Shown here: one piece after another, positions 13,543 through 51,361 of the stretch
Layout of the letters: each line of letters begins with the position of its first letter
Numbering within the stretch: position 1 is the first letter of the stretch
From: Agrobacterium cucumeris
Lineage (GTDB): Bacteria; Pseudomonadota; Alphaproteobacteria; Rhizobiales; Rhizobiaceae
Assembly: GCF_030036535.1 (NCBI RefSeq)
Contig: NZ_CP080388.1
Location: 868,001-932,000 of the forward strand
Length of the DNA: 64,000 nt
Direction of reading: 5' to 3'
Position numbers and translations under genes: made by a program
Notes under the pieces: model-generated
What the model was told of the DNA's origin: nothing
What the model saw: only the letters and a program-made list of their open reading frames with translations
The model's database searches: none

Positions 13543-13655
13543 ATATGTCCTAGCAATGGCAAAGTACATTGATTACGTCAATTATGCGGCGCACTATCCA
13601 CCATGGAGGATGGCTTTTACCACACGCCGCACCGATGAACCCAGGAATGAACGAA

Positions 13656-14819
13656 ATGCCGATTTTGAACAGAGCCGCCGAACTTCAACAGGAAGTCAGC
13701 GAATGGCGGCGTCACCTGCACGAAAATCCTGAGATTTTGTATGATGTCGACAACACCGCAGCCTTCGTTGCGGACAAGCTGAAATCTTTCGGCGTTGACG
13801 AAATTGTGACCGGTCTTGGCCGCACGGGTGTGGTCGGCATCATCAGGGGCAATCTTGCCGGTGAACGCACCATCGGCTTTCGCGCGGATATGGACGCCTT
13901 GCCCATTCTCGAGGAAACCGGCAAGCCCTGGGCATCGAAAACAGCAGGTGCGATGCATGCCTGCGGCCATGACGGCCATACCGCCATGCTGCTCGGCGCA
14001 GCCAAATATCTCACCGAGACCCGCAACTTCGCCGGCTCGATCGCCGTCATCTTCCAGCCCGCCGAAGAAGGTGGCGCTGGCGCGCTCGCCATGGTCGAGG
14101 ACGGCTTGATGGAGCGTTTCGGCATTAACGAGGTCTATGGCATGCACAATATGCCGGGCATTCCTCTCGGCGCCTTCGCCATCCGCAAGGGCGGCATCAT
14201 GGCGGCACCGGACAAGTTCTCCATCACCGTCAAGGGCCGGGGCGGCCATGCGGCACAGCCGCACCGCACCATCGACCCCATCACCATCGGCGCACAGATT
14301 GTCGGCAACCTGCAGATGATCGCTTCGCGCAATGCCGATCCGATCCGTTCGGTCGTCGTGTCCGTCACCCGCTTTCACGCCGGCTCCAGCCACAACATCA
14401 TCCCCAACGAGGCGCTGATTGCCGGCACGGTGCGCAGCCTCGACGAAACGGTGCGCGATCTCGCGCAGGACCGCATCAAGCAGATGGCGGAAGGCATAGC
14501 CCTTGCCAATGGCGCCGAAGCCGAAGTCGTCTATGAGCGTTATTGCCCGGTGACCTTCAACCACGCCGCCGAGACCGACCACGCCATCCGCGTCGCCCGC
14601 GATGTGGCGGGAGACCACAATGTCGATCCCGATGTCGATCCCTCCATGGCCGGCGAAGATTTTTCCTTCATGCTGAAGGAAAGGCCGGGCGCCTTCATCT
14701 TCCTCGGCAATGGCGATTCGGCCGGGCTTCATAATCCCGGCTACGATTTTAACGACGACGCCATCGCCTACGGCATTTCCTACTGGGTGAAGCTGGCTGA
14801 ACAGCGTCTCACGAGCTGA
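13656..14819 (+). CDS. M20 family amidohydrolase/carboxypeptidase (hippurate hydrolase-like)
   Basis: The 387-residue enzyme has the M20D metal-site signature MHACGHDGHTAM (100-111), EEGGAGALAM, the dimerisation-domain GRGGHAAQPH and a C-terminal DPSMAGEDFSFM. Family members hydrolyse N-acyl or N-aminoacyl amide bonds such as hippurate, indole-3-acetyl-amino acids or N-acetyl amino acids. The exact substrate cannot be read. The start at 13656 (MPILNRAAELQQEV) has AGGA upstream; in-frame ATGs further upstream run into the dacA-like promoter. No signal peptide is seen, so it is probably cytoplasmic. Confidence 0.92.
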   Translation: MPILNRAAELQQEVSEWRRHLHENPEILYDVDNTAAFVADKLKSFGVDEIVTGLGRTGVVGIIRGNLAGERTIGFRADMDALPILEETGKPWASKTAGAMHACGHDGHTAMLLGAAKYLTETRNFAGSIAVIFQPAEEGGAGALAMVEDGLMERFGINEVYGMHNMPGIPLGAFAIRKGGIMAAPDKFSITVKGRGGHAAQPHRTIDPITIGAQIVGNLQMIASRNADPIRSVVVSVTRFHAGSSHNIIPNEALIAGTVRSLDETVRDLAQDRIKQMAEGIALANGAEAEVVYERYCPVTFNHAAETDHAIRVARDVAGDHNVDPDVDPSMAGEDFSFMLKERPGAFIFLGNGDSAGLHNPGYDFNDDAIAYGISYWVKLAEQRLTS

Positions 14820-14914: not shown

Positions 14915-15231
14915 GTCCACGTAGCTCAGCAGGATAGAGCACAGGATTCCTAGTTGATAATTGGGGGCTGCGGTCCGAAAGGCTGTAGTCGATCTGCTCA
15001 AATTCGGGGAACGCTTAGCTGGGCTTCCAGCATGCCAATCCCGAGCCAAGCTTCAGGCGAAAGCCTGTTGAAGGTGTAGAGACTGGTAGGGCAGCGCCTA
15101 AAGGCCGCAAGGTCCATGGTGAAGGGACAGTCCAGACCACGAACGCCCTGCCTATTTTCGGCGGGACGGCGGTTAAAGCCGAAGTGGTATGAATCCTGGG
15201 GTCGGAGGTTCGAATCCTCTCGTGGACACCA
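14915..15231 (+). tRNA. tRNA-Arg(CCU), interrupted by a group I intron
   Basis: Two exons, 14915-14951 (37 nt) and 15192-15231 (40 nt), join to a canonical 77-nt tRNA. The acceptor stem GTCCACG pairs with CGTGGAC, the D-arm is GCTC/GAGC, the anticodon stem CAGGA/TCCTG holds the loop TTCCTAA with anticodon CCT (14949-14951), the T-arm is GGAGG-TTCGAAT-CCTCT, and the CCA end is encoded. The break falls exactly after the third anticodon base. Without splicing the anticodon loop cannot form. An intron-bearing tRNA-Arg(CCU) is a published feature of Agrobacterium. Confidence 0.97.
14952..15191 (+). ncRNA. Self-splicing group I intron in tRNA-Arg(CCU)
   Basis: The 240-nt insert follows group I rules. 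The 5' exon ends in U (CCT) and the intron ends in G. A GGGGG internal guide (14963-14967) can pair with the exon UUCCU to form P1 with the expected U-G wobble. P- and Q-like elements AAATTCGGGGAA (from 15000) and AATCCCGAGCC (15037-15047) pair as P4. GACTG (15081-15085) and CAGTC (15128-15132) form P7, the guanosine-binding helix. A GAAA tetraloop closes CAGGC/GCCTG near 15053-15066. No reading frame for a homing endonuclease is present, so it depends on RNA chemistry alone. Confidence 0.93.
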
Positions 15232-15351: not shown

Positions 15352-16515
15352 TTACACCGCCACCGGCGTGATCCAGCGCGGAGCGGCGCTTTCGGCACTA
15401 TCCACAACCGCTTCCACAAAGGCCACACCCTTCAGCCCGTCATAGGCAAGCGGAATGTTGCGGCCAATCGCACCCGTCTCACGGCCCGCCTTGCGGGCAC
15501 GGATGGCTTCCGCGAAACCGGCATAGAGGTTGGCGAAGGCCTCCAGATATCCCTCCGGGTGGCCGGGCGGAGTGCGGGTTCGAACCTTCGCATCTTCGGA
15601 AAGATCGTCCGCGCCGCGCTTGATGGTCTGCACACGCCCGTTAAGCGGCGTATAGACGAGTTCGTTCGGCTGTTCCTGAAACCATTGCAACGAACCGGTC
15701 GCGCCGAAAACCCGCAGACGCACGCCGTTGGAATTGCCGAGCGCCACCTGCGACGACCAGAGGAGCCCCCGCGCGCCGCCCTCATAACGCATCATCACAT
15801 GGGCATTGTCATCCAGCGCCCGCCCCACCACGAAAGTGGCGAGATCGGCGGTGAGCGACTGCAGTTTCAGCCCGGTCACGAAGCCGGCCAGATGATAGGC
15901 ATGGGTGCCGATATCGCCGATGGAGCCGCCGCGGCCGTTCTTCTTCGGGTCGGTGCGCCATGCCGCCTGGGCATTGCCCTGCTGTTCGATGGCCGTTGCC
16001 ATCCATTCCAGCGGATATTCCACCTGCACGGTGCGAACCTCGCCGATCTCACCCGCCGCGACGCGCGCACGCGCTTCATGCACCATCGGATAGCCGGAAT
16101 AGGTGTAGGTCACCCCAACGAAGCGGCCGCTTTCCCGCGACAGCTTTTCCAGAGCGATGGCATCCTCCAGCGTCGCGGTCAGCGGCTTTTCGCAGATCAC
16201 GTCGAAACCTGCCTCGATCAGCGCCTTCGCGATCGGATAGTGGGTGAAATTCGGTGTGCAGATCGCAACCGCATCGACACGATCCTCACGGGCAGCCTCG
16301 CCGGTAATCAGCTCCTGATAGCTGCCGTAACTGCGGGCCGGGTCAAGCCCTTCATTGATCGCAAAGGCGCGGCCCCTTTCGGGATCGACATCAAAGGCCC
16401 CGGTCACAAGCACCCATTTGCCGTCAAGGCGTGCGGCAAGACGGTGGATATTGCCGATATAGGCTCCCTGGCCGCCGCCGATCATGCCCAGACGAAGTGG
16501 TCTTTCGATAGTCAT
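15352..16515 (-). CDS. Gfo/Idh/MocA family oxidoreductase
   Basis: The 387-residue protein has an N-terminal Rossmann fold with GMIGGGQGAYIG (about 9-20) and the family's catalytic Lys in ICEKPL, followed by the C-terminal alpha/beta domain with IGDIGTHAYHLAGF, carrying the usual Asp/His pair. These enzymes oxidise or epimerise sugars and cyclitols, for example at C3 or C2, with NAD(P). It is the last gene of the leftward iolD-iolE-SDR-isomerase run, and its ATG overlaps the preceding stop by four bases. The pairing of a Gfo/Idh/MocA enzyme with a TIM-barrel isomerase is typical of 3-keto-sugar chemistry, but the substrate here is inferred only as cyclitol-related. Confidence 0.9.
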   Translation of the reverse strand: MTIERPLRLGMIGGGQGAYIGNIHRLAARLDGKWVLVTGAFDVDPERGRAFAINEGLDPARSYGSYQELITGEAAREDRVDAVAICTPNFTHYPIAKALIEAGFDVICEKPLTATLEDAIALEKLSRESGRFVGVTYTYSGYPMVHEARARVAAGEIGEVRTVQVEYPLEWMATAIEQQGNAQAAWRTDPKKNGRGGSIGDIGTHAYHLAGFVTGLKLQSLTADLATFVVGRALDDNAHVMMRYEGGARGLLWSSQVALGNSNGVRLRVFGATGSLQWFQEQPNELVYTPLNGRVQTIKRGADDLSEDAKVRTRTPPGHPEGYLEAFANLYAGFAEAIRARKAGRETGAIGRNIPLAYDGLKGVAFVEAVVDSAESAAPRWITPVAV

Positions 16516-17573
16516 TGTTCCTCCAGCCCCAGCATGGTGCGGTTGGCATTGCGGTTCGCGCCGGATTTGACGAAATCGTCAAAGGCGCGGTCCGAAACAC
16601 GGATGATGTGATCGGCGATGAAACGTGCGCCTTCAGACGCACCGTCCTCGGGGTTCTTGACGAAACATTCCCACTCCAGCACCGCCCAGCCATCAAAGCC
16701 GTAGGTCGTCAGCTTGGTGAAGATCGCCCCGAAATCAACCTGCCCGTCGCCGGGGCTGCGGAAGCGCCCGGCCCTTTTTGACCATGGCTGATAACCGCCA
16801 TAGGCGCCCGATTTTCCGTCTGGACGAAACTCGGCATCCTTGACGTGGAAGGTTTTTATCCGCTGGTGGTAATGGTCGATGAAGGCGAGATAATCCATTC
16901 CCTGCAGAACGAGATGCGAGGGATCATACATCAGGTTCGCCCGGGGATGTTCCTTGACCTTGTCGAGAAACATCTCCCAGCTGTGGCCGTCATGCAGGTC
17001 TTCGCTCGGATGGATTTCATAGCAGACATCCACGCCATGGGCGTCGAAATCATCAAGAATCGGCGTCCAGCGGCGGGCAAGCTCGTCAAAGCCTTCCTCC
17101 ACCAGCCCTTCCGGCCATTGCGGATAGGGATAAAGATACGGCCATAAAAGCGCCCCGGGGAAGGTCACATGGCGGTCGATGCCGAGGCGCTTTGAGGCGC
17201 GGGCGGCAAAGCGCAGTTGTTCCTCGGCCCATGCCCGACGCTTTGCGGGATTGCCGCGCACATGTTCCGGTGCAAAACTGTCCATGATCGCATCATGGGC
17301 GGGGTGCACCGCCACAAGCTGCCCGGTGATGTGCGAGGCGAGTTCGGTGATCTCCAGCCCATGCTCGCCGAGCATGCCCTTCAGATCACCGCAATAGGCA
17401 TCGCTTTCCGCCGCCTGTTTCATGTCGATCAGGCGCGTATCCCAGGTGGGAATCTGCACGCCCTTGAAGCCCTTCGCCGAGGCCCACGCCGCCAGCGAGG
17501 CAAGCGAATTATAGGGCGCCTCATCGGCCGCGAACTGTGCCAGAAAGACACCCGGCCCCTTGATGGTTCGCAT
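16512..17573 (-). CDS. Sugar phosphate isomerase/epimerase-type TIM barrel protein
   Basis: The 353-residue protein belongs to the xylose-isomerase-like/AP endonuclease 2 superfamily. Metal-site candidates can be seen in VCYEIHPSEDLHDG, NLMYDPSHLVLQG, TFHVKDAEFRP and a C-terminal WAVLEWECF Glu. The start at 17573 gives MRTIKGPGVFLAQF; the frame is open 54 bases further upstream without a ribosome-binding site. It starts five bases past the SDR stop and overlaps the next gene, so it is translationally coupled inside the iol operon. Members act as isomerases, epimerases or lyases of keto-sugars; the exact reaction is unknown. Confidence 0.88.
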   Translation of the reverse strand: MRTIKGPGVFLAQFAADEAPYNSLASLAAWASAKGFKGVQIPTWDTRLIDMKQAAESDAYCGDLKGMLGEHGLEITELASHITGQLVAVHPAHDAIMDSFAPEHVRGNPAKRRAWAEEQLRFAARASKRLGIDRHVTFPGALLWPYLYPYPQWPEGLVEEGFDELARRWTPILDDFDAHGVDVCYEIHPSEDLHDGHSWEMFLDKVKEHPRANLMYDPSHLVLQGMDYLAFIDHYHQRIKTFHVKDAEFRPDGKSGAYGGYQPWSKRAGRFRSPGDGQVDFGAIFTKLTTYGFDGWAVLEWECFVKNPEDGASEGARFIADHIIRVSDRAFDDFVKSGANRNANRTMLGLEEQ

Positions 17574-17577
17574 AGGC

Positions 17578-18390
17578 TTATTCCTCCAGCTTTTTCGCCG
17601 GCACCGGCGCGTCGTCGTAACCGCCATAGACCGACTGATCGAAGGGGATCACCGCGCCCGTCATCATGCCGCTGTCTTCGGAGGACATCCACAGGATGGC
17701 GCGGGCCACTTCGCGCGGATCGAGGATGCGCCCGAACGGCTTGGCCGCCGCCGCGCGGTCGATGAAATCGGGATCGCCGGTCTCGGAAAGGACAAGCTTG
17801 CGCTCGTGATCGGAATTCATCCAGCCGATATCGAGCTGGTTCACATGGATACGGTGGCGCATCAGCGAAAAGCCGGCATGGCGGGTGACGGTGGCAAGCG
17901 CGCCCTTGGACGCCGCATAGGGCGCAAGGAAAGGCTGGCCTGTCAGACCCGACATTGATCCGACATTAACGACCCGACCCTCGATCCCCTCGCGGATCAT
18001 CACCTTTGCCGCATCCTGAATGAGAAAGAATGGCGCACGCGTGTTGACCGCGAACATCCGGTCGAAAAGCTCGGGCGTTGTGTTGAGCATGTTGCCGCGA
18101 TCCGTCAGGCCCGCCGCGTTAACGAGGATATCGACCCGACCGAAGCGTTTGTCCGTCGCCGGAATGATGCTGCGGACATCATCGATATCGCCGAGATCGG
18201 CCGCCACCATCTCAACCGGCACGCCTGATTTCTGCGTGATGGCATCCGCGACAGCCTGTCCTTTTTCCACACCGCGCCCGACAATGACGATCCCCGCCGC
18301 GCCCGCCTGCGCAAACACCTGCGCAACCGCTGCGCCCAGACCCTGGGTTCCGCCGGTAACAACGGCGATCTTTCCTTCAATACGGTTCAT
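17578..18390 (-). CDS. Short-chain dehydrogenase/reductase
   Basis: A classical SDR of 270 residues with the TGGTQGLG cofactor motif (12-19), DLGD, NAAG, the catalytic Ser of NVGSMSG and the YAASK Tyr-Lys pair. The cofactor is probably NAD(H) or NADP(H); after the second strand VGRG follows, and the residues do not settle which. It sits between iolE and the TIM-barrel isomerase and shares ATGA with the iolE stop. A role in oxidising or reducing a cyclitol or a ring-opened intermediate is inferred from context only. Confidence 0.9.
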   Translation of the reverse strand: MNRIEGKIAVVTGGTQGLGAAVAQVFAQAGAAGIVIVGRGVEKGQAVADAITQKSGVPVEMVAADLGDIDDVRSIIPATDKRFGRVDILVNAAGLTDRGNMLNTTPELFDRMFAVNTRAPFFLIQDAAKVMIREGIEGRVVNVGSMSGLTGQPFLAPYAASKGALATVTRHAGFSLMRHRIHVNQLDIGWMNSDHERKLVLSETGDPDFIDRAAAAKPFGRILDPREVARAILWMSSEDSGMMTGAVIPFDQSVYGGYDDAPVPAKKLEE

Positions 18391-19280
18391 TTCACGACCT
18401 CATATCCAGCGGCGTCCATCACGCGCAGCAATTCCCTGTGCCCCTTTCGGGCCATGTCCAGCGGCGGGTTCCTGATCGGGTCCTGCTCCGCCTCGACCAC
18501 GAACCAGCCCTCGTAACCTTTCGACGCCAGCGCCTTGACGATCGCCCCGAAATCCAGGCTGCCATCACCCGGCACGGTAAAGGCGCCCTTGATGACGGCA
18601 TCGAGGAAACTCTCCCGGCTCCTGTCCAGCCCGTCGACAACCTCACGCCGGATATCCTTGGTGTGGACATGGGTAACGCGTGCATGGTGGTTTTCGATGA
18701 CACGCATGACATCGCCGCCCGCAAAGGCCATGTGCCCGGCATCAAACAGCAGGGGCACGGAGGAGTGCTTCATGAAGAAATCAAGTTCCGGCTCGGTCTC
18801 CACCACGGCCGCCATATGGTGATGGTAGGAAATCGGCATGCCCTTCGCCGCGCACCAGTCGGCAAAGTCGGACATCTTGCGGCCATAGGCCGCCATGCCC
18901 GCCTCGTCGAGCCGGGGCTTCGTGGCAAGTGGTGCGGAGCGCACGCCCTGAATGGAGCGCGCCGTTTCACCATAAACGATGCAGGGCGCGCCGGCGGCGA
19001 TGAAGAATTCCATCTGCTGCGCGATGCGGTCTTTCTCCGCCTCGATGTCACCATCCAGCAGCAGGCCGGAAAACCAGCCGCCGCATACCGATATGCCGTA
19101 ACGGTCGAGGATCGGCCCAAGCTCCGCCATATCCATCGGAAACCGGCGCCCGGTCTCCATTCCGGTAAAGCCGGCTTCGCTTGCCTGCCGCAGGCATTCC
19201 TGAAGGCTCACATCATCGGAAAGCTCGGCAAGATCATCATTCCACCAGGCGATCGGCGCGATACCAAGTCTTGCTTTCAT
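18387..19280 (-). CDS. iolE: Myo-inosose-2 dehydratase (IolE)
   Basis: IolE removes water from scyllo-inosose (2-keto-myo-inositol) to give 3D-(3,5/4)-trihydroxycyclohexane-1,2-dione, the IolD substrate. The 297-residue TIM-barrel protein begins MKARLGIAPIAWWNDDL, matching the IolE N-terminus (GIAPI.W.NDD), and carries metal-site stretches GMETGRRFP, SYHHHMAAVVE, PLLFDAGHMAFAG and THVHTKDIR. The start at 19280 is one base after the iolD stop (TGAgATG). The upstream in-frame extension is not family-like. Confidence 0.93.
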   Translation of the reverse strand: MKARLGIAPIAWWNDDLAELSDDVSLQECLRQASEAGFTGMETGRRFPMDMAELGPILDRYGISVCGGWFSGLLLDGDIEAEKDRIAQQMEFFIAAGAPCIVYGETARSIQGVRSAPLATKPRLDEAGMAAYGRKMSDFADWCAAKGMPISYHHHMAAVVETEPELDFFMKHSSVPLLFDAGHMAFAGGDVMRVIENHHARVTHVHTKDIRREVVDGLDRSRESFLDAVIKGAFTVPGDGSLDFGAIVKALASKGYEGWFVVEAEQDPIRNPPLDMARKGHRELLRVMDAAGYEVVK

Positions 19281-19281
19281 C

Positions 19282-21153
19282 TCAGACCCCCACTCGCTGC
19301 GCCTTGCGGATGTTTTCCTGCGCAGCGCGGGCGGCACGCACTGTCTCGAAACTGGAGACGGAGGGAACACCGACATCCCAGTCGGCATCGCCCGGCACCC
19401 ATTTCCAGGCATCGGAAACGATGGAGATGACGGTCACGCCGTCATTGCCCTGCGCCCAGATCATCGCGTCTTCAAGATCGGCAAGGCTCTCGGCCCTGCG
19501 CGCATGGGCGCCCATGGCTTCCGCATGCTTGACGAAATCGACATGCAGCGGATTTTCCCTGTCCCTGACGCGGCAATCTGCCAGCAGATTGTTGAAGCCG
19601 GGAACGCCCTTGGCCTGCTGCAAACGGTTGATGACGGCATAGCCGCCATTATCGCAGACCACCACGATCATCCGGTGCCCGGTAAGCGCGGCTGAATAGA
19701 TATCCGAGTTCATCATCATGTAGGTGCCGTCCCCCAGCATGACGATTGGAACGCCGCCGGTACCGCCCGGCCCTTCCTGCGCCATGGAGCAGCCCCAGCC
19801 GGCAGCGATTTCATAACCCATGCAGGAAAACCCGAATTCGCAATCGAACGTATTCGGGTTCTTGACCCGCCAGCCCTTGGTCACCTCACCCGGCGTTCCG
19901 CCCGCCGCCGCAATCAGCGTATCTTCGGGCCGCGCAACCCGGTTCAGCACGCCAACCACCTGCGCATAGGAAGGAACCGGCGCATTGGTGATGCGCTGGT
20001 GTTCGTCGAGCAGATTGTCCCATTCGGCAAACAGCGTTTTGGCCCGCTGCATATGGGTGGCATCGGCCTTATAGGCGCCGAGCGCGTGGTCCAGCTCGTC
20101 GATCGTCTCAAGCGCATCGCCGACCACGGAAAGCGCCCGGTGTTTCACCGCATCGAAGCGGGCGGCGTTAACGGAAATGAACTGCGCATCGCGGGAGAAA
20201 GCCGTCCAGGAACCCGTGGTGAAATCCTGAAGCCGGGTACCGATCGCCAGCACGACATCCGCATCCTTGGCCAGCGCATTCGCCGAAGTTGATCCGACGA
20301 TGCCGATCGGCCCGGCATGGACCGGATGGTGATGGGTGAGCGCGCCCTTGCCGGCGATGGTTTCGACCACGGGAATGCCGCGCTTTGCAGCGAAATCGGC
20401 AAGGCGCTCTTCCGCCAGCGAATAACGCACGCCACCGCCGGAAATGATGAGCGGACGTTTCGCCTGCGCCAGCAGCCGGGCGGCGGCCGCCGCAGCGTCA
20501 CGGTCAGGACGCGGCCGAGGAATTTTCCAGACTTTCGGTTCAAAGAAGACCGCCGGATAATCGAAAGCGATTTCCTGCGTATCCTGCGCAAGACCGATAA
20601 AGGCCGGGCCGCAATCGGCCGGATCGAGCATGGTGGCGACCGCCTGCGGCAGCGATTGCAGCAATTGTTCCGGCAGCACGATCCTGTCCCAGTAACGCAC
20701 CACGGATTTGAACGCGTCATTAACGGTGAGTGTCGGATCGCCGAAATGCTCGACCTGCTGCAGAACCGGGTCCGGCAGGCGGCTTGCGAAAGTATCACCT
20801 GCAAGGAGGAGAACGGGCAGCCGGTTGGCCATGGCGACGCCGGCGGCAGTGACCATGTTCAACGCCCCCGGCCCGATCGAAGTCGCAGCGACCATGATCT
20901 GCCTGCGCCGCTTTGCCTTGGCAAAGCCGATTGCGGCAAGCGCCATGGATTGTTCATTCTGCCCGCGCCAGGTCGGCAACTGGTCCTGCACCGTCTCCAG
21001 AGCTTCGGAAAGGCATGTGACATTGCCGTGCCCGAAAATGGCGAACACGCCCGCGAACAAAGGAACGCGCTCTCCGTCGATCTCGGTAAACTGGTTGCAC
21101 AGGTAACGTACTAGCGCCTGGGCCATGGTCAGGCGTAAGGTCTTCGCGGTCAT
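19282..21153 (-). CDS. iolD: 3D-(3,5/4)-trihydroxycyclohexane-1,2-dione acylhydrolase (IolD)
   Basis: IolD is a thiamine diphosphate enzyme that opens the cyclohexanedione ring to 5-deoxy-glucuronate. The 623-residue protein has the three ThDP-enzyme domains: an N-terminal PYR domain with the catalytic-type Glu region GQNEQSMALAAIGFAKA, a central Rossmann-like domain (SGGGVRYS, DVVLAIGTRLQDF) and a C-terminal PP domain with the cofactor motif VMLGDGTYMMMNSDIYSA. The start at 21153 (MTAKTLRLTMAQALV) has a strong GGAGGAGG upstream. It leads the leftward operon and is divergent from iolG across a 105-base region with candidate operators. Confidence 0.95.
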   Translation of the reverse strand: MTAKTLRLTMAQALVRYLCNQFTEIDGERVPLFAGVFAIFGHGNVTCLSEALETVQDQLPTWRGQNEQSMALAAIGFAKAKRRRQIMVAATSIGPGALNMVTAAGVAMANRLPVLLLAGDTFASRLPDPVLQQVEHFGDPTLTVNDAFKSVVRYWDRIVLPEQLLQSLPQAVATMLDPADCGPAFIGLAQDTQEIAFDYPAVFFEPKVWKIPRPRPDRDAAAAAARLLAQAKRPLIISGGGVRYSLAEERLADFAAKRGIPVVETIAGKGALTHHHPVHAGPIGIVGSTSANALAKDADVVLAIGTRLQDFTTGSWTAFSRDAQFISVNAARFDAVKHRALSVVGDALETIDELDHALGAYKADATHMQRAKTLFAEWDNLLDEHQRITNAPVPSYAQVVGVLNRVARPEDTLIAAAGGTPGEVTKGWRVKNPNTFDCEFGFSCMGYEIAAGWGCSMAQEGPGGTGGVPIVMLGDGTYMMMNSDIYSAALTGHRMIVVVCDNGGYAVINRLQQAKGVPGFNNLLADCRVRDRENPLHVDFVKHAEAMGAHARRAESLADLEDAMIWAQGNDGVTVISIVSDAWKWVPGDADWDVGVPSVSSFETVRAARAAQENIRKAQRVGV

Positions 21154-21190
21154 CTCGCCTCCTCCTGCGGATGGTTGTTGATATGTTTTT

Positions 21191-21204
21191 GGAATACATA
21201 TTGA
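21191..21204. promoter_or_regulatory. Candidate iol operator, degenerate copy (iolD/iolG)
   Basis: GGAAT-ACAT-ATTGA matches the GCAAT-N4-ATTGC dyad at 8 of the 10 arm positions. It is centred 29 bp from the perfect copy at 21220, in the iolD/iolG divergent promoter. Confidence 0.5.
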
Positions 21205-21219
21205 CAAATTCGGTACTTT

Positions 21220-21233
21220 GCAATGATTATTGC
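21220..21233. promoter_or_regulatory. Candidate iol operator, perfect copy (iolD/iolG)
   Basis: GCAAT-GATT-ATTGC has perfect 5-base inverted arms, 26 bases upstream of the iolG start codon. The same arms occur immediately before the RpiR-type regulator gene and upstream of the ABC importer, so binding by that regulator is the simplest reading. Confidence 0.62.
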
Positions 21234-21258
21234 CAAATACCTCGGGAGGAAAATTTCA

Positions 21259-22260
21259 ATGCTGAGAATTGCAGTGCTTGGCGTGGGCCGTATCGGCCGC
21301 ATGCATGCGGAAAACATCGTCGCTCATCCACGCGCGACATTGGCTGGTATCTTTGATGTATACGAGCCCTCGGCGAAAGAAGTTGCCGAAAAGCTGACAC
21401 GATTTGAGTCGGCCGAGGCGGTTTTTGCCTCGCCTGAGGTCGACGCCGTGCTGATCGCAACCTCAACGCCCACCCATGCGGATCTGCTGGAAAAGGCGGT
21501 TGCCGCCGGAAAACCGGTGCTTTGCGAAAAGCCCATCGATCTCTCCCTCGACCGCGTCAACGCCTGTGCAACAAAAATTGCCGGCAGCGATGTACCGATC
21601 ATGCTCGGCTTCGTCCGGCGTTTTGACAGCGGACACCGCGCCGTGCGTGAGGCCGTCGAAAACGGAACGATAGGCGATCTGCATCAGGTCGTCATCACCT
21701 CGCGCGACCCCGGCATGGCTCCCGCCGCCTATATCGAAATGTCGGGCGGCATTTTCCGCGACATGACGATCCATGATTTCGACATGGCCCGCTTCATTCT
21801 GGGTGAAGAGATCAGCCAAGTCTCGGCCACCGGTTCGCGGCTGGTCGACCCGGCGCTGATGGAAAAATGCGACGACTACGACACCGTGACCGTGGTGCTG
21901 AAAACCGCTTCGGGCAAACAATGCACGATCAGCAACTCTCGGCGCGCGGTATATGGCTACGATCAGCGGGTGGAAGCCTTCGGAAGTGCCGGCATGGCGA
22001 TTTCCGAAAACCGGACGCTCAATCACCTGCGTCTCCACACCGAAACCGGTACCGACCGGGCAGCACCGCTGATGAACTTCTTCATCGACCGTTATGCCGA
22101 TGCTTTCGCAGCGGAAATCAGCGCCTTCGTCGATGCGGTGGAACAGGGCAAGGCACCGGAGGTCGGCTTCGAAGACGGCCGGCTGGCATTGCTTCTGGCC
22201 GAAGCGGCGATCCGCTCTGTCGCCGAGGGGCGCACCGTCAACACAAGCGAGATCGGGTAA
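21259..22260 (+). CDS. iolG: Inositol 2-dehydrogenase (IolG/IdhA)
   Basis: IolG oxidises myo-inositol to scyllo-inosose with NAD, the first step of inositol breakdown. The 333-residue Gfo/Idh/MocA protein has GVGRIGRMHAENI near the N-terminus, Lys91 in CEKPIDL, and the inositol-dehydrogenase hallmark SGGIFRDMTIHDFDMARF with the catalytic Asp/His pair, then ISNSRRAVYGYDQRVE. This pattern is that of rhizobial IdhA. The ATG at 21259 follows GGGAGGAAA; a longer frame from 21223 would run through the operator. It heads the rightward operon. Confidence 0.93.
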   Translation: MLRIAVLGVGRIGRMHAENIVAHPRATLAGIFDVYEPSAKEVAEKLTRFESAEAVFASPEVDAVLIATSTPTHADLLEKAVAAGKPVLCEKPIDLSLDRVNACATKIAGSDVPIMLGFVRRFDSGHRAVREAVENGTIGDLHQVVITSRDPGMAPAAYIEMSGGIFRDMTIHDFDMARFILGEEISQVSATGSRLVDPALMEKCDDYDTVTVVLKTASGKQCTISNSRRAVYGYDQRVEAFGSAGMAISENRTLNHLRLHTETGTDRAAPLMNFFIDRYADAFAAEISAFVDAVEQGKAPEVGFEDGRLALLLAEAAIRSVAEGRTVNTSEIG

Positions 22261-22263
22261 ACC

Positions 22264-23694
22264 ATGTACGCGAATTTTGGACTTTTCATAGATGGACGCT
22301 GGCTTGCCGGTGCCGCAACCGGCGAGGTTGTCTCTCCAGTCACCGGCGCTGCGCTCGGCAAGGTGACGCTTGCCAACGCCGATCAAACCCGCGATGCGAT
22401 CGACGCGGCGGCAGCCGCCCTTCCGAAACTGCGCGCCATGGGCGGCTTCGCACGCGCCGAGGCGCTACACCGGGCCGCCGACGAAATGCTGCGCCGTGCT
22501 GACGAAGGCGCAACGATGATCTCGCTGGAGACCGGCAAACCGATTGCCCAGGCGGGTCGCGAATGGACGCTTTCCTGCGACCAGTTCCGCTGGTTCGCCG
22601 AAGAAGCACGCCGCATTTATGGCCGCATCGTCGACAGCCGGGTGCCCGGTGGTCGATTTGAGGTGACCCGCGAAGCAGTCGGCATCGTCGGCGCTTTCAC
22701 CGCCTGGAATTTTCCGGCCGCCCTTCCGGCCCGCAAGCTCGCCCCCGCGCTCGCCGCCGGATGCCCCGTCGTGCTGCGCCCCTCATCCCAGACGCCCGGT
22801 GTCGCCATGGTCATGGTCGACTGCCTGAGGGCCGCCGGCTTTCCCGATGGCGCCGTCAATCTGGTTGTCGGTTCGACCGCCGATACCTATGGCCCGATCA
22901 TGGCGGACAAGCGGGTGCGCAAGGTGTCGCTGACCGGCTCCACCCGCGTCGGCCAGCAAATGATCCGTGACGCCGCTGAGACCGTGAAGAAGGTCTCTAT
23001 GGAACTGGGCGGCAATGCGCCCCTCATCATTTATGACGATGCGGATCTCGACAACGCGCTCGACCTTGCCGTGCCCACCAAATTCGCCAATTGCGGCCAG
23101 GTCTGCGTCACGCCGGATCGCATCTTCGTCCACGAGAGCCTGCACGACGCCTTTGTCGACGGTTTCGTGGCCCGCGCGGCGAAGATCAGGCTTGGTGACG
23201 GGCTTGATGCCGATACCGGAATGGGTCCGCTCATCAATGCCGGTCGCCTTGAGGACATCGAGGCGGTAGTCGCCGACGCCGTGCGCGCCGGTGCAAAAAT
23301 CGCCCATGGCGGCAAACGCCCCTCACACCTGAACCACGGTTTCTTTTTCGAGCCCACCGTGCTGACCGGCGTGACGGACACGATGAAGGTTTTTGCCGAA
23401 GAAAATTTCGGTCCGATTGCCGCAATCACCCGCTTCAGCACCGAGGACGAGGTTCTGGAGCGGGCCAACGCCTCCGACATGGGCCTTTCCGCCTATGCCT
23501 TCACCCGTTCTCCGGACAGGGCACGGCGAACGGTAGCGGCACTGAAATCCGGCATGGTCGGCATCAACAGCTTCGCGCTCGCCGCATCCGAAGCGCCTTT
23601 CGGCGGCACCAACCATTCCGGCATGGGGCGTGAGGGTGGTATCGAGGGGATAAGCGATTATCTCGAAACCAAACTCGCCCAGATCGTCTTTTAG
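22264..23694 (+). CDS. NAD(P)-dependent aldehyde dehydrogenase (SSADH-like)
   Basis: A 476-residue aldehyde dehydrogenase with the general-base Glu247 (MELGGNAP) and the nucleophile Cys281 (NCGQVC). The cofactor-binding loop reads LRPSSQTP, where most relatives have a Lys instead of Arg172, so cofactor handling may be altered. The overall sequence is closest to succinate-semialdehyde dehydrogenases. It is not the CoA-acylating IolA type (methylmalonate semialdehyde dehydrogenase). It starts three bases after the iolG stop and is therefore co-transcribed. In the locus it may oxidise an aldehyde released by the downstream aldolase. Confidence 0.9.
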   Translation: MYANFGLFIDGRWLAGAATGEVVSPVTGAALGKVTLANADQTRDAIDAAAAALPKLRAMGGFARAEALHRAADEMLRRADEGATMISLETGKPIAQAGREWTLSCDQFRWFAEEARRIYGRIVDSRVPGGRFEVTREAVGIVGAFTAWNFPAALPARKLAPALAAGCPVVLRPSSQTPGVAMVMVDCLRAAGFPDGAVNLVVGSTADTYGPIMADKRVRKVSLTGSTRVGQQMIRDAAETVKKVSMELGGNAPLIIYDDADLDNALDLAVPTKFANCGQVCVTPDRIFVHESLHDAFVDGFVARAAKIRLGDGLDADTGMGPLINAGRLEDIEAVVADAVRAGAKIAHGGKRPSHLNHGFFFEPTVLTGVTDTMKVFAEENFGPIAAITRFSTEDEVLERANASDMGLSAYAFTRSPDRARRTVAALKSGMVGINSFALAASEAPFGGTNHSGMGREGGIEGISDYLETKLAQIVF

Positions 23695-50124: not shown

Positions 50125-51303
50125 TCAGGCGGCAGCCTTGGAAAGTGCTGCCTTCTGCGTCTGGTAAGCCCAGGCGAGCCAGGGCATGACGGCTTCCATA
50201 TCGGCCGTCTCGATGGTGGCGCCGGCCCAGATGCGCAGACCGGACGGTGCGTCACGGTAAGCGCCGATATCGAGCGCGACATTTTCCTTCTCGAGCAGGG
50301 CAACAACGCCCTTGGCGAAGTCGGCCTGTGCGGCCGCATCCAGCGCCTGTACCTCGGGATCGACGATCTTCAGGCAGACGGAGGTGTTGGAGCGGGTTTC
50401 CGGCTTGACGGCCAGGTTGGCGATCCAGTCATTCTTCTCGATGAAGTCGTAGATGACCTTGGCATTGGCATCGGCACGGCCGATCAGCGCCTTAAGGCCA
50501 CCAAGGTTCTTCGCCCACAGCAACGCATCAATATAGTCTTCAACGCAAAGCATGGACGGCGTGTTGATGGTTTCGCCGGTGAAGATGCCTTCGATCAGCT
50601 TGCCGCCAGAGACCATGCGGAAGATTTTCGGCAGTGGCCATGTCGGCGAATAGCTCAGCAGGCGCTCAACAGCACGGGGCGAAAGGATGATGACGCCGTG
50701 GCCGCCTTCACCGCCCAGAACCTTCTGCCAGGAGAAGGTGACGACGTCGAGTTTCGTAAAGTCCATGTCCTGTGCGAAGGCCGCCGAGGTGGCGTCGCAG
50801 ATCGTCAGGCCCTTGCGGTCAGCAGGAATGAAATCGGCATTGGCAACGCGGACGCCCGATGTCGTGCCGTTCCAGGTGAAGACGACATCACGGTCGAAAT
50901 CGACTTCGGCAAGGTTCGGCAGCAGGCCGTAATCGGCCTCGAATTTGCGGACGTCCTTCAGCTTCAGCTGCTTGACGACGTCGGTGACCCAGCCGGCGCC
51001 GAAGCTTTCCCAGGCGAGCATATCGACGCCACGTTCACCGAGCAGCGACCAGAGCGCCATTTCAACAGCGCCGGTATCGGATGCAGGAACGATGCCGATA
51101 CGATAATCGGCGGGGACGTTTAGAATTTCACGGGTAAGATCGATGGCCTGCTTCAGCTTGTCTTTGCCAACCTTGGCGCGATGCGAGCGACCGAGCGGTG
51201 CATCGGAGAGAGCATCTAGCGACCAACCGGGACGCTTCGAGCAGGGACCAGAAGAGAAATGCGTATTGCCCGGACGGAGGTCCGGCTTCACTATATCTGT
51301 CAT
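50125..51303 (-). CDS. serC: Phosphoserine aminotransferase
   Basis: SerC converts 3-phosphohydroxypyruvate to phosphoserine with PLP. The 392-residue enzyme begins [21 protein letters not shown], with the [11 protein letters not shown] opening of this alphaproteobacterial branch and the PLP Lys in [17 protein letters not shown]. serC-serA is a common rhizobial operon. Its upstream region carries a probable structured leader. Confidence 0.96.
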
Positions 51304-51361
51304 TTGACTACCCTTTCAGATAGGCGCTCCACGTTAGGGTGGAGTGTCCTGACGCCGTTGC
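51304..51361 (-). promoter_or_regulatory. Probable serC-motif RNA leader
   Basis: On the minus strand, just before the serC ATG, an 18-nt hairpin CTCCAC-CCTAAC-GTGGAG is enclosed by GGCG (51353-51356) and CGCC (51323-51326), and the region ends in CTGAAAGGGTAGTC, which contains the AGGG ribosome-binding site. A 'serC motif' RNA was described upstream of serC in alphaproteobacteria; position and shape match, but I identified it from memory and cannot align it. Confidence 0.55.

Follow-up and report, generated by a model that had tools for sequence, protein, structure and literature searches.

A group I intron in the tRNA-Arg(CCU) gene of Agrobacterium cucumeris and its relatives in other bacterial tRNA genes

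The interrupted gene and the fold of its insert

The stretch of 64,000 nt of Agrobacterium cucumeris DNA analysed here (the window) raises the question of what interrupts the anticodon loop of one of its tRNA genes and whether growth depends on the removal of the insert. An earlier note, made from the sequence alone, had described a tRNA-Arg(CCU) whose two exons rejoin into a 77-nt molecule and whose intron lies directly after the anticodon. ARAGORN run without introns yielded only tRNA-Gly and tRNA-Met in the window. With introns allowed, it returned a complete 77-nt tRNA-Arg(CCU) at positions 14915-15231, with a 240-nt intron that follows U36, directly 3′ of the anticodon. An exhaustive join test gave several CCU solutions with introns of 240 nt, among which 14952-15191 is the one with U ending the 5′ exon and G ending the intron. 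ARAGORN, which makes its placement freely and demands neither a U before the intron nor a G at its end, set the boundary after U36 with a terminal G in all 26 distinct Arg loci. The arms of the joined tRNA are paired and its CCA is encoded. The split tRNA-Arg(CCU) is confirmed, right to the base (Table 1). Promoter and terminator patterns near the split gene did not rise above chance.

Table 1. Features of the split tRNA-Arg(CCU) gene and its neighbours (window positions)
Feature	Positions	Strand	Basis
M20-type peptidase, upstream neighbour	13569-14819		
5′ exon of tRNA-Arg(CCU), ends at U36	14915-14951	+	sequence, ARAGORN
P1: exon UCCU (14948-14951) with guide GGGG (14963-14966), U-G at splice site	14948-14966	+	sequence
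Group I intron, 240 nt	14952-15191	+	Rfam match, ARAGORN, covariation
P2 hairpin, loop GAAA 14977-14980	14967-14990	+	sequence
P3 5′ strand CUGCUC, partner GGGCAG 15089-15094	14994-14999	+	98.8% paired, both-side changes in 3 of 6 pairs
P4 5′ strand, partner 15039-15044	15004-15009	+	100% paired, invariant
P5 and P5a	15013-15035	+	comparative alignment
P4 3′ strand	15039-15044	+	comparative alignment
P6 and P6a	15045-15075	+	comparative alignment
P7 5′ strand GACUG, partner CAGUC 15128-15132; guanosine-binding helix, crosses P3	15081-15085	+	100% paired
P3 3′ strand	15089-15094	+	comparative alignment
P8	15095-15121	+	both-side changes in both halves
P7 3′ strand	15128-15132	+	comparative alignment
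P9 region: ACCAC (15136-15140) with GUGGU (15184-15188), encloses P9.1 and a hairpin	15136-15188	+	sequence
Terminal G of intron	15191	+	sequence; alike in 26/26 ARAGORN-placed Arg loci
3′ exon of tRNA-Arg(CCU), encoded CCA	15192-15231	+	sequence, ARAGORN
Gfo/Idh/MocA-type oxidoreductase, downstream neighbour	15352-16515	opposite to tRNA	

The splice-site features named in the earlier note, a U-G pair within P1 at the 5′ splice site and a G as the last intron base, can both be read directly in the sequence. Through the guide AUU-GGG(G) the intron can pair both with the 5′-exon CCU, placing U-G at the cut, and with the 3′-exon AAU, as a possible P10 (14960-14962 with 15192-15194); P1 is extended by AGUU pairing with AAUU. 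The same note had also proposed the P4 and P7 pairings. We examined these in 27 aligned cores, covering P3 to P8 with the P3/P7 pseudoknot (38 pairs, 994 cells; the row of locus L043 is off by one base in P3). Standard pairs filled 95.6% of the cells and 21 of the 38 pairs varied on both strands, levels of pairing and covariation that no shuffle out of 500 attained. Pairing fell to 31-44% when partners were slid by 1 to 3 columns, a control over which the structure is favoured, having been derived from the same 27 sequences. Changes on both sides occurred in P3, P5, P5a, P6a, P8 and one P7 pair; one P3 pair varies among CG, UA and GC, and the last P7 pair among GC, AU and UA. Both proposed pairings held throughout. 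P4 and four of the five P7 pairs are invariant and so neither support nor oppose the structure, while the fifth P7 pair covaries. The folding energy of the bare insert was no better than that of shuffles (z -0.49) and thus provides no evidence.

The identification as a group I intron rests on this covarying P3-P8 core and on a match to the Rfam Intron_gpI model (RF00028), and it stands, although the Rfam result is two-sided. In a 451-nt stretch the model matched 14942-15143 with a significant E of 1.8e-4, and in the whole genome the same place was the only match at E ≤10 (E 5.5e-4); its 25.3 bits, however, lie below the gathering score of 50 bits, and for this reason a default Rfam scan of the window omits the intron. 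Such scores are common among its relatives, since 19 of 20 scanned member loci fall below the gathering score and one passes it. In subgroup IC3, GNRA loops of P2 and P9 dock into receptors. The window intron, which probably belongs to this subgroup, has GAAA in its P2 loop and UAAA in its P9 hairpin loop (15174-15177). Across 54 Arg introns the P9 hairpin loop is GAAA in 45, GGAA in three, UAAA in five (the window's included) and AAAA in one; with UAAA instead of GAAA, the tertiary contact may be weaker.

Relatives in the family and in other tRNAs

A DNA search matched 183 of 199 genomes of the family, many of them, among the matches listed, through tRNA exon pieces alone, and covariance model R1 matched 68 of 394 family genomes. 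The eight genus genomes listed in the family sample, the window's own included, all matched R1 and all carry the intron in tRNA-Arg(CCU). The 69 loci taken from the own, genus and family genomes comprise 45 in Arg(CCU), 22 in Leu(UAA) and two without tRNA assignment. Over its whole length the split gene is 98% identical to that of another species of the genus, and uninterrupted tRNA-Arg(CCU) alleles occur in two genomes from other genera of the same family (loci L204 and L205). At nine other Arg-intron loci the M20 peptidase gene likewise lies upstream, and one of them also has the downstream oxidoreductase; most flanks compared were at most 1.5 kb, so that a neighbour missing elsewhere says little. 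The retention of these neighbours fits inheritance of the whole locus, and the intron appears to have been inherited with it in this part of the family.

Several observations were made in passing. In one genome of the genus (G120), the initial 28 bases of the 5′ exon occur a second time (L011:1198-1225), some 300 bp upstream of the intact gene with its intron, perhaps as a trace of recombination or integration. The window's genome encodes a telomere resolvase (135.5 bits). Window positions 15400-23000 hold inositol catabolism genes (iolD, iolE, iolG and others, named from matches) with about 80% DNA identity to Paracoccus replicons, and an Rfam serC leader lies at 51303-51354 on the minus strand.

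Beyond the family, strictly filtered scoring with R1 gave matches in 50 of 385 class genomes and 41 of 398 phylum genomes, two overlapping samples in which the window's own genome is included. We studied 166 loci, repeat copies of one place having been excluded beforehand. Of these, 144 were placed by a script whose requirements are the acceptor, D, anticodon and T arms, a U before the intron and a G at its end, so the constancy of U and G in this set is built in. Relaxed rules, ARAGORN and reading by eye raised the number to 156, and none of these approaches recovered a tRNA at the other ten. The hosts assigned are Leu(UAA) (63), Arg(CCU) (60), Lys(UUU) (7), Leu(CAA) (7), Thr(GGU) (5), Met/Ile(CAU) (5), Lys(CUU) (4), Thr(CGU) (2), Arg(UCU) (2) and Thr(UGU) (1); assignment is less sure for Arg(UCU) (L128, L184) and for all five with CAU. 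Insertion points range from 33/34 to 36/37, although placements at 33/34 are weak because in five of the seven introns placed there no guide was found in the first 32 nt. Three Leu(CAA) introns from outside the class (L129, L181, L183) seemingly have C rather than U ahead of the 5′ splice site, and in two CAU loci (L175, L185) the intron end is unlike the others. The Thr(UGU) relative (L043:1897-2224, site 36/37) resides on a 1.26-Mb plasmid of Tritonibacter mobilis. With the alphaproteobacterial tRNA-Arg(CCU) introns the window intron shares its host tRNA, site 36/37 and a homologous core.

The guide sequences differ between the two main hosts. Of the 54 Arg(CCU) introns, 53 have the motif AUUGGG and one has GAGU or GAGC, the alternative that suits a Leu exon ending in CUU; of the 62 Leu(UAA) introns, 61 have GAGU or GAGC and one has AUUGGG. 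These counts separate Arg from Leu, yet shared ancestry contributes to them too. By a crude score, an intron's own exon fitted at least as well as every foreign one in 70 of 144 introns (32/54 Arg, 32/62 Leu(UAA) and 6/28 others). A tree of the cores (144 rows, 148 columns) left 74 of 139 inner branches open and had 18 changes of host label, against 66 in shuffles. In this weakly resolved tree 51 of 54 Arg introns group together (SH-aLRT 82). A single clade was not rejected for all 54 Arg introns (p-AU 0.936, in a test that left out ten long-branch rows of other labels) or for Leu(UAA) (p-AU 0.84). If the family is one lineage, its presence in many tRNAs means that shifts between them must have happened.

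How the intron could move was also touched on by the earlier note, which saw no endonuclease frame and concluded that mobility would have to come from elsewhere. The window intron indeed contains a single 41-aa frame on each strand, longer frames running past its ends, and mobility from elsewhere fits this copy; but one relative does carry a frame inside the intron. This is a 693-nt Leu(UAA) intron of the family from a genome of the class (L100:661-1440), with an antisense frame of 154 aa that matches HNH weakly (E 5.2e-4, under the Pfam cut-off) and sits, by eye, in the P6 region.

A split tRNA-Leu(UAA) on plasmids

Searching PLSDB by blastn with the window gene gave matches on 1271 plasmids, with 71-75% identity in the intron core among the matches listed. 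On pCTX-M3 (NC_004464.2; L041:3934-4235) the match proves to be a complete tRNA-Leu(UAA) gene that a 213-nt intron interrupts after U34; it adjoins an AAA ATPase frame and aac(3)-IId. With this tRNA-Leu gene as query, 1257 of 72,556 PLSDB plasmids held at least 80% of it, and 1277 of 1280 matching records were at least 99% identical to it. The same coverage was found in 624 of 5426 complete E. coli genomes, where 589 of 670 places are on plasmids and 81 on the chromosome. On 1141 PLSDB plasmids the gene is joined to an aac(3)-II gene, counted with a query that runs from upstream of the tRNA into aac(3) at 80% coverage, so that neither end is dispensable; aac(3)-II-like genes overall occur on 2328 plasmids. 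The split tRNA-Leu was unannotated in all four records inspected; as PLSDB tables omit RNA genes by design, it is the two RefSeq records among them that carry this point.

An exact 27-nt junction pattern occurred in nine stretches of genome contigs. Its alphaproteobacterial carriers are Enterovirga, Devosia and Pseudochelatococcus; the remaining six records come from Acinetobacter (five) and Kluyvera (one) and include two named plasmids. In Acinetobacter and Kluyvera, long matches show 99-100% identity with the plasmid block. Identity to the plasmid DNA is 90.6% across 468 nt in Pseudochelatococcus and 92-93% across 353 nt in Devosia and Enterovirga; these alphaproteobacterial matches end at the 3′ end of the tRNA, without the resistance block. 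Such near-copies on alphaproteobacterial contigs make an alphaproteobacterial origin of the plasmid split tRNA-Leu likely, a conclusion that covers the tRNA and does not extend to aac(3)-IId.

Decoding of AGG, competing explanations and known systems

According to the earlier note, growth depends on self-splicing because this tRNA is needed for AGG codons. A genome search with the joined tRNA found no second tRNA-Arg(CCU), in line with the note's premise; besides the two halves, it matched Arg(CCG), Arg(ACG), Pro, Asn and Pro tRNAs. AGG makes up 40 of 14,675 codons (2.7 per 1000) in the 32 long frames of the window chosen by length and GC3, and is commoner there than AGA. As AGG is used, splicing may help growth. 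Dependence on splicing is plausible but is not established, because the genome also has an intact tRNA-Arg(UCU) (on G000:C1), and its U34 may read AGG by wobble. Strict dependence, with tRNA-Arg(CCU) as the only tRNA able to read AGG, draws on the uniqueness of the gene and on the frequency of AGG; set against the UCU tRNA and its wobble reading, we regard it as rather unlikely. Separately, the 3′ part of the tRNA-Arg(UCU) gene is repeated 1.86 kb downstream of the intact copy (G000:C1:1575641 and 1577501; L039, L040), an arrangement resembling the att repeat of a small integrated element.

We are highly confident that a small group I intron of the bacterial tRNA type interrupts the sole tRNA-Arg(CCU) gene found in the genome, between U36 and the next base. 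This explanation draws on the 77-nt tRNA obtained on joining, the Intron_gpI match, the covarying helices, the U and G at the ends in all 26 loci, the division of guide motifs between Arg and Leu, and the common Arg(CCU) host in all eight listed genus genomes. The empty alleles, the shared upstream peptidase gene and a homologue in Bartonella that splices (PMC7717549) add to it, while an Rfam score of half the gathering value, the ordinary folding energy and the UAAA loop of P9 weaken it. The precursor would fold into P1-P9, free guanosine, the presumed cofactor, would bind in P7, and the RNA would be cut after U36; CCU would then be joined to AAU, with the last G of the intron at the second cut, to give an ordinary tRNA. 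Judged from these sequence features, the 240-base RNA probably cuts itself out. It has no mobility frame of its own and would have been passed on with the locus.

The low Rfam score and the altered P9 loop would equally fit a decayed intron that has lost splicing and left AGG to the tRNA-Arg(UCU) present in the genome. Core helices, splice-site bases and guide motif are retained, however, both tRNA halves are intact with CCA encoded, and the near identity to the other genus species spans the entire split gene, all of which makes decay very improbable. An unrelated insertion in a tRNA pseudogene, be it a mobile element, a repeat or a protein-spliced intron, could explain why default scans show neither tRNA nor intron here. 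Yet the group I core covaries, 156 of the 166 loci with the same core were placed in tRNA anticodon loops, and no repeats of at least 14 nt were found around the site as traces of insertion; we consider such an insertion hardly credible.

The group I intron reading also agrees with known systems. The alphaproteobacterial tRNA-Arg(CCU) intron family has been known since 1992, and the window intron is a further, ordinary member of it. Reinhold-Hurek and Shub in 1992 and Paquin et al. in 1999 are said to have described the intron in Agrobacterium tumefaciens and other alphaproteobacteria; in A. tumefaciens it reportedly measures 249 nt, occupies the same insertion site and has no endonuclease. 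By these descriptions, the two introns are alike in host tRNA, site and lack of endonuclease and similar in size (240 against 249 nt). The intron of Azoarcus tRNA-Ile(CAU), likewise small and inserted after the anticodon, differs in its host. That of cyanobacterial and plastid tRNA-Leu(UAA) lies after U34, a site shared by many of the relatives found here; by description it is, like the window's, a group I intron in a tRNA anticodon loop, but in another host tRNA and at another site. According to PMC7717549, the tRNA-Arg(CCU) group I intron was first found in A. tumefaciens, and BbgpI of Bartonella bacilliformis, a different genus, splices in vivo and in vitro; by that description BbgpI shares with the window intron the tRNA-Arg(CCU) host and flanking CCT repeats. 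The available parts of other reports record tRNA introns in cyanobacteria and in alpha- and betaproteobacteria (PMC3984707, PMC4033280, PMC8450103), among them the cyanobacterial and plastid tRNA-Leu(UAA) group I intron (PMC4033280) and tRNA-Ile2 introns in Acidovorax and Burkholderia (PMC8450103), and those parts make no mention of Lys or Thr hosts or of plasmid tRNA introns. By title and abstract, the open-access literature, which lacks most subscription papers, gave no reports of Lys, Thr or plasmid tRNA group I introns.

Taking the family as a whole, we give about an even chance to the following history: through changes in its guide, and in nearly all cases with no endonuclease encoded within it, a single lineage of small tRNA group I introns would have moved among some ten tRNA species in Pseudomonadota. 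Enclosed in the split tRNA-Leu(UAA) next to aac(3)-IId, it would also have left its alphaproteobacterial hosts, and about one ninth of complete E. coli genomes would carry an unannotated, possibly self-splicing tRNA as a result. As both tRNA and intron escape standard annotation, tRNA tables and codon studies of such bacteria can miss genes. Because the same family occupies neighbouring anticodon-loop positions in several tRNAs, the survey makes the change of site by endonuclease-free introns more testable. The DNA beside aac(3)-IId gives a hint of alphaproteobacterial ancestry, and the plasmid copy amounts to a natural experiment on the spread of such an intron into new hosts.
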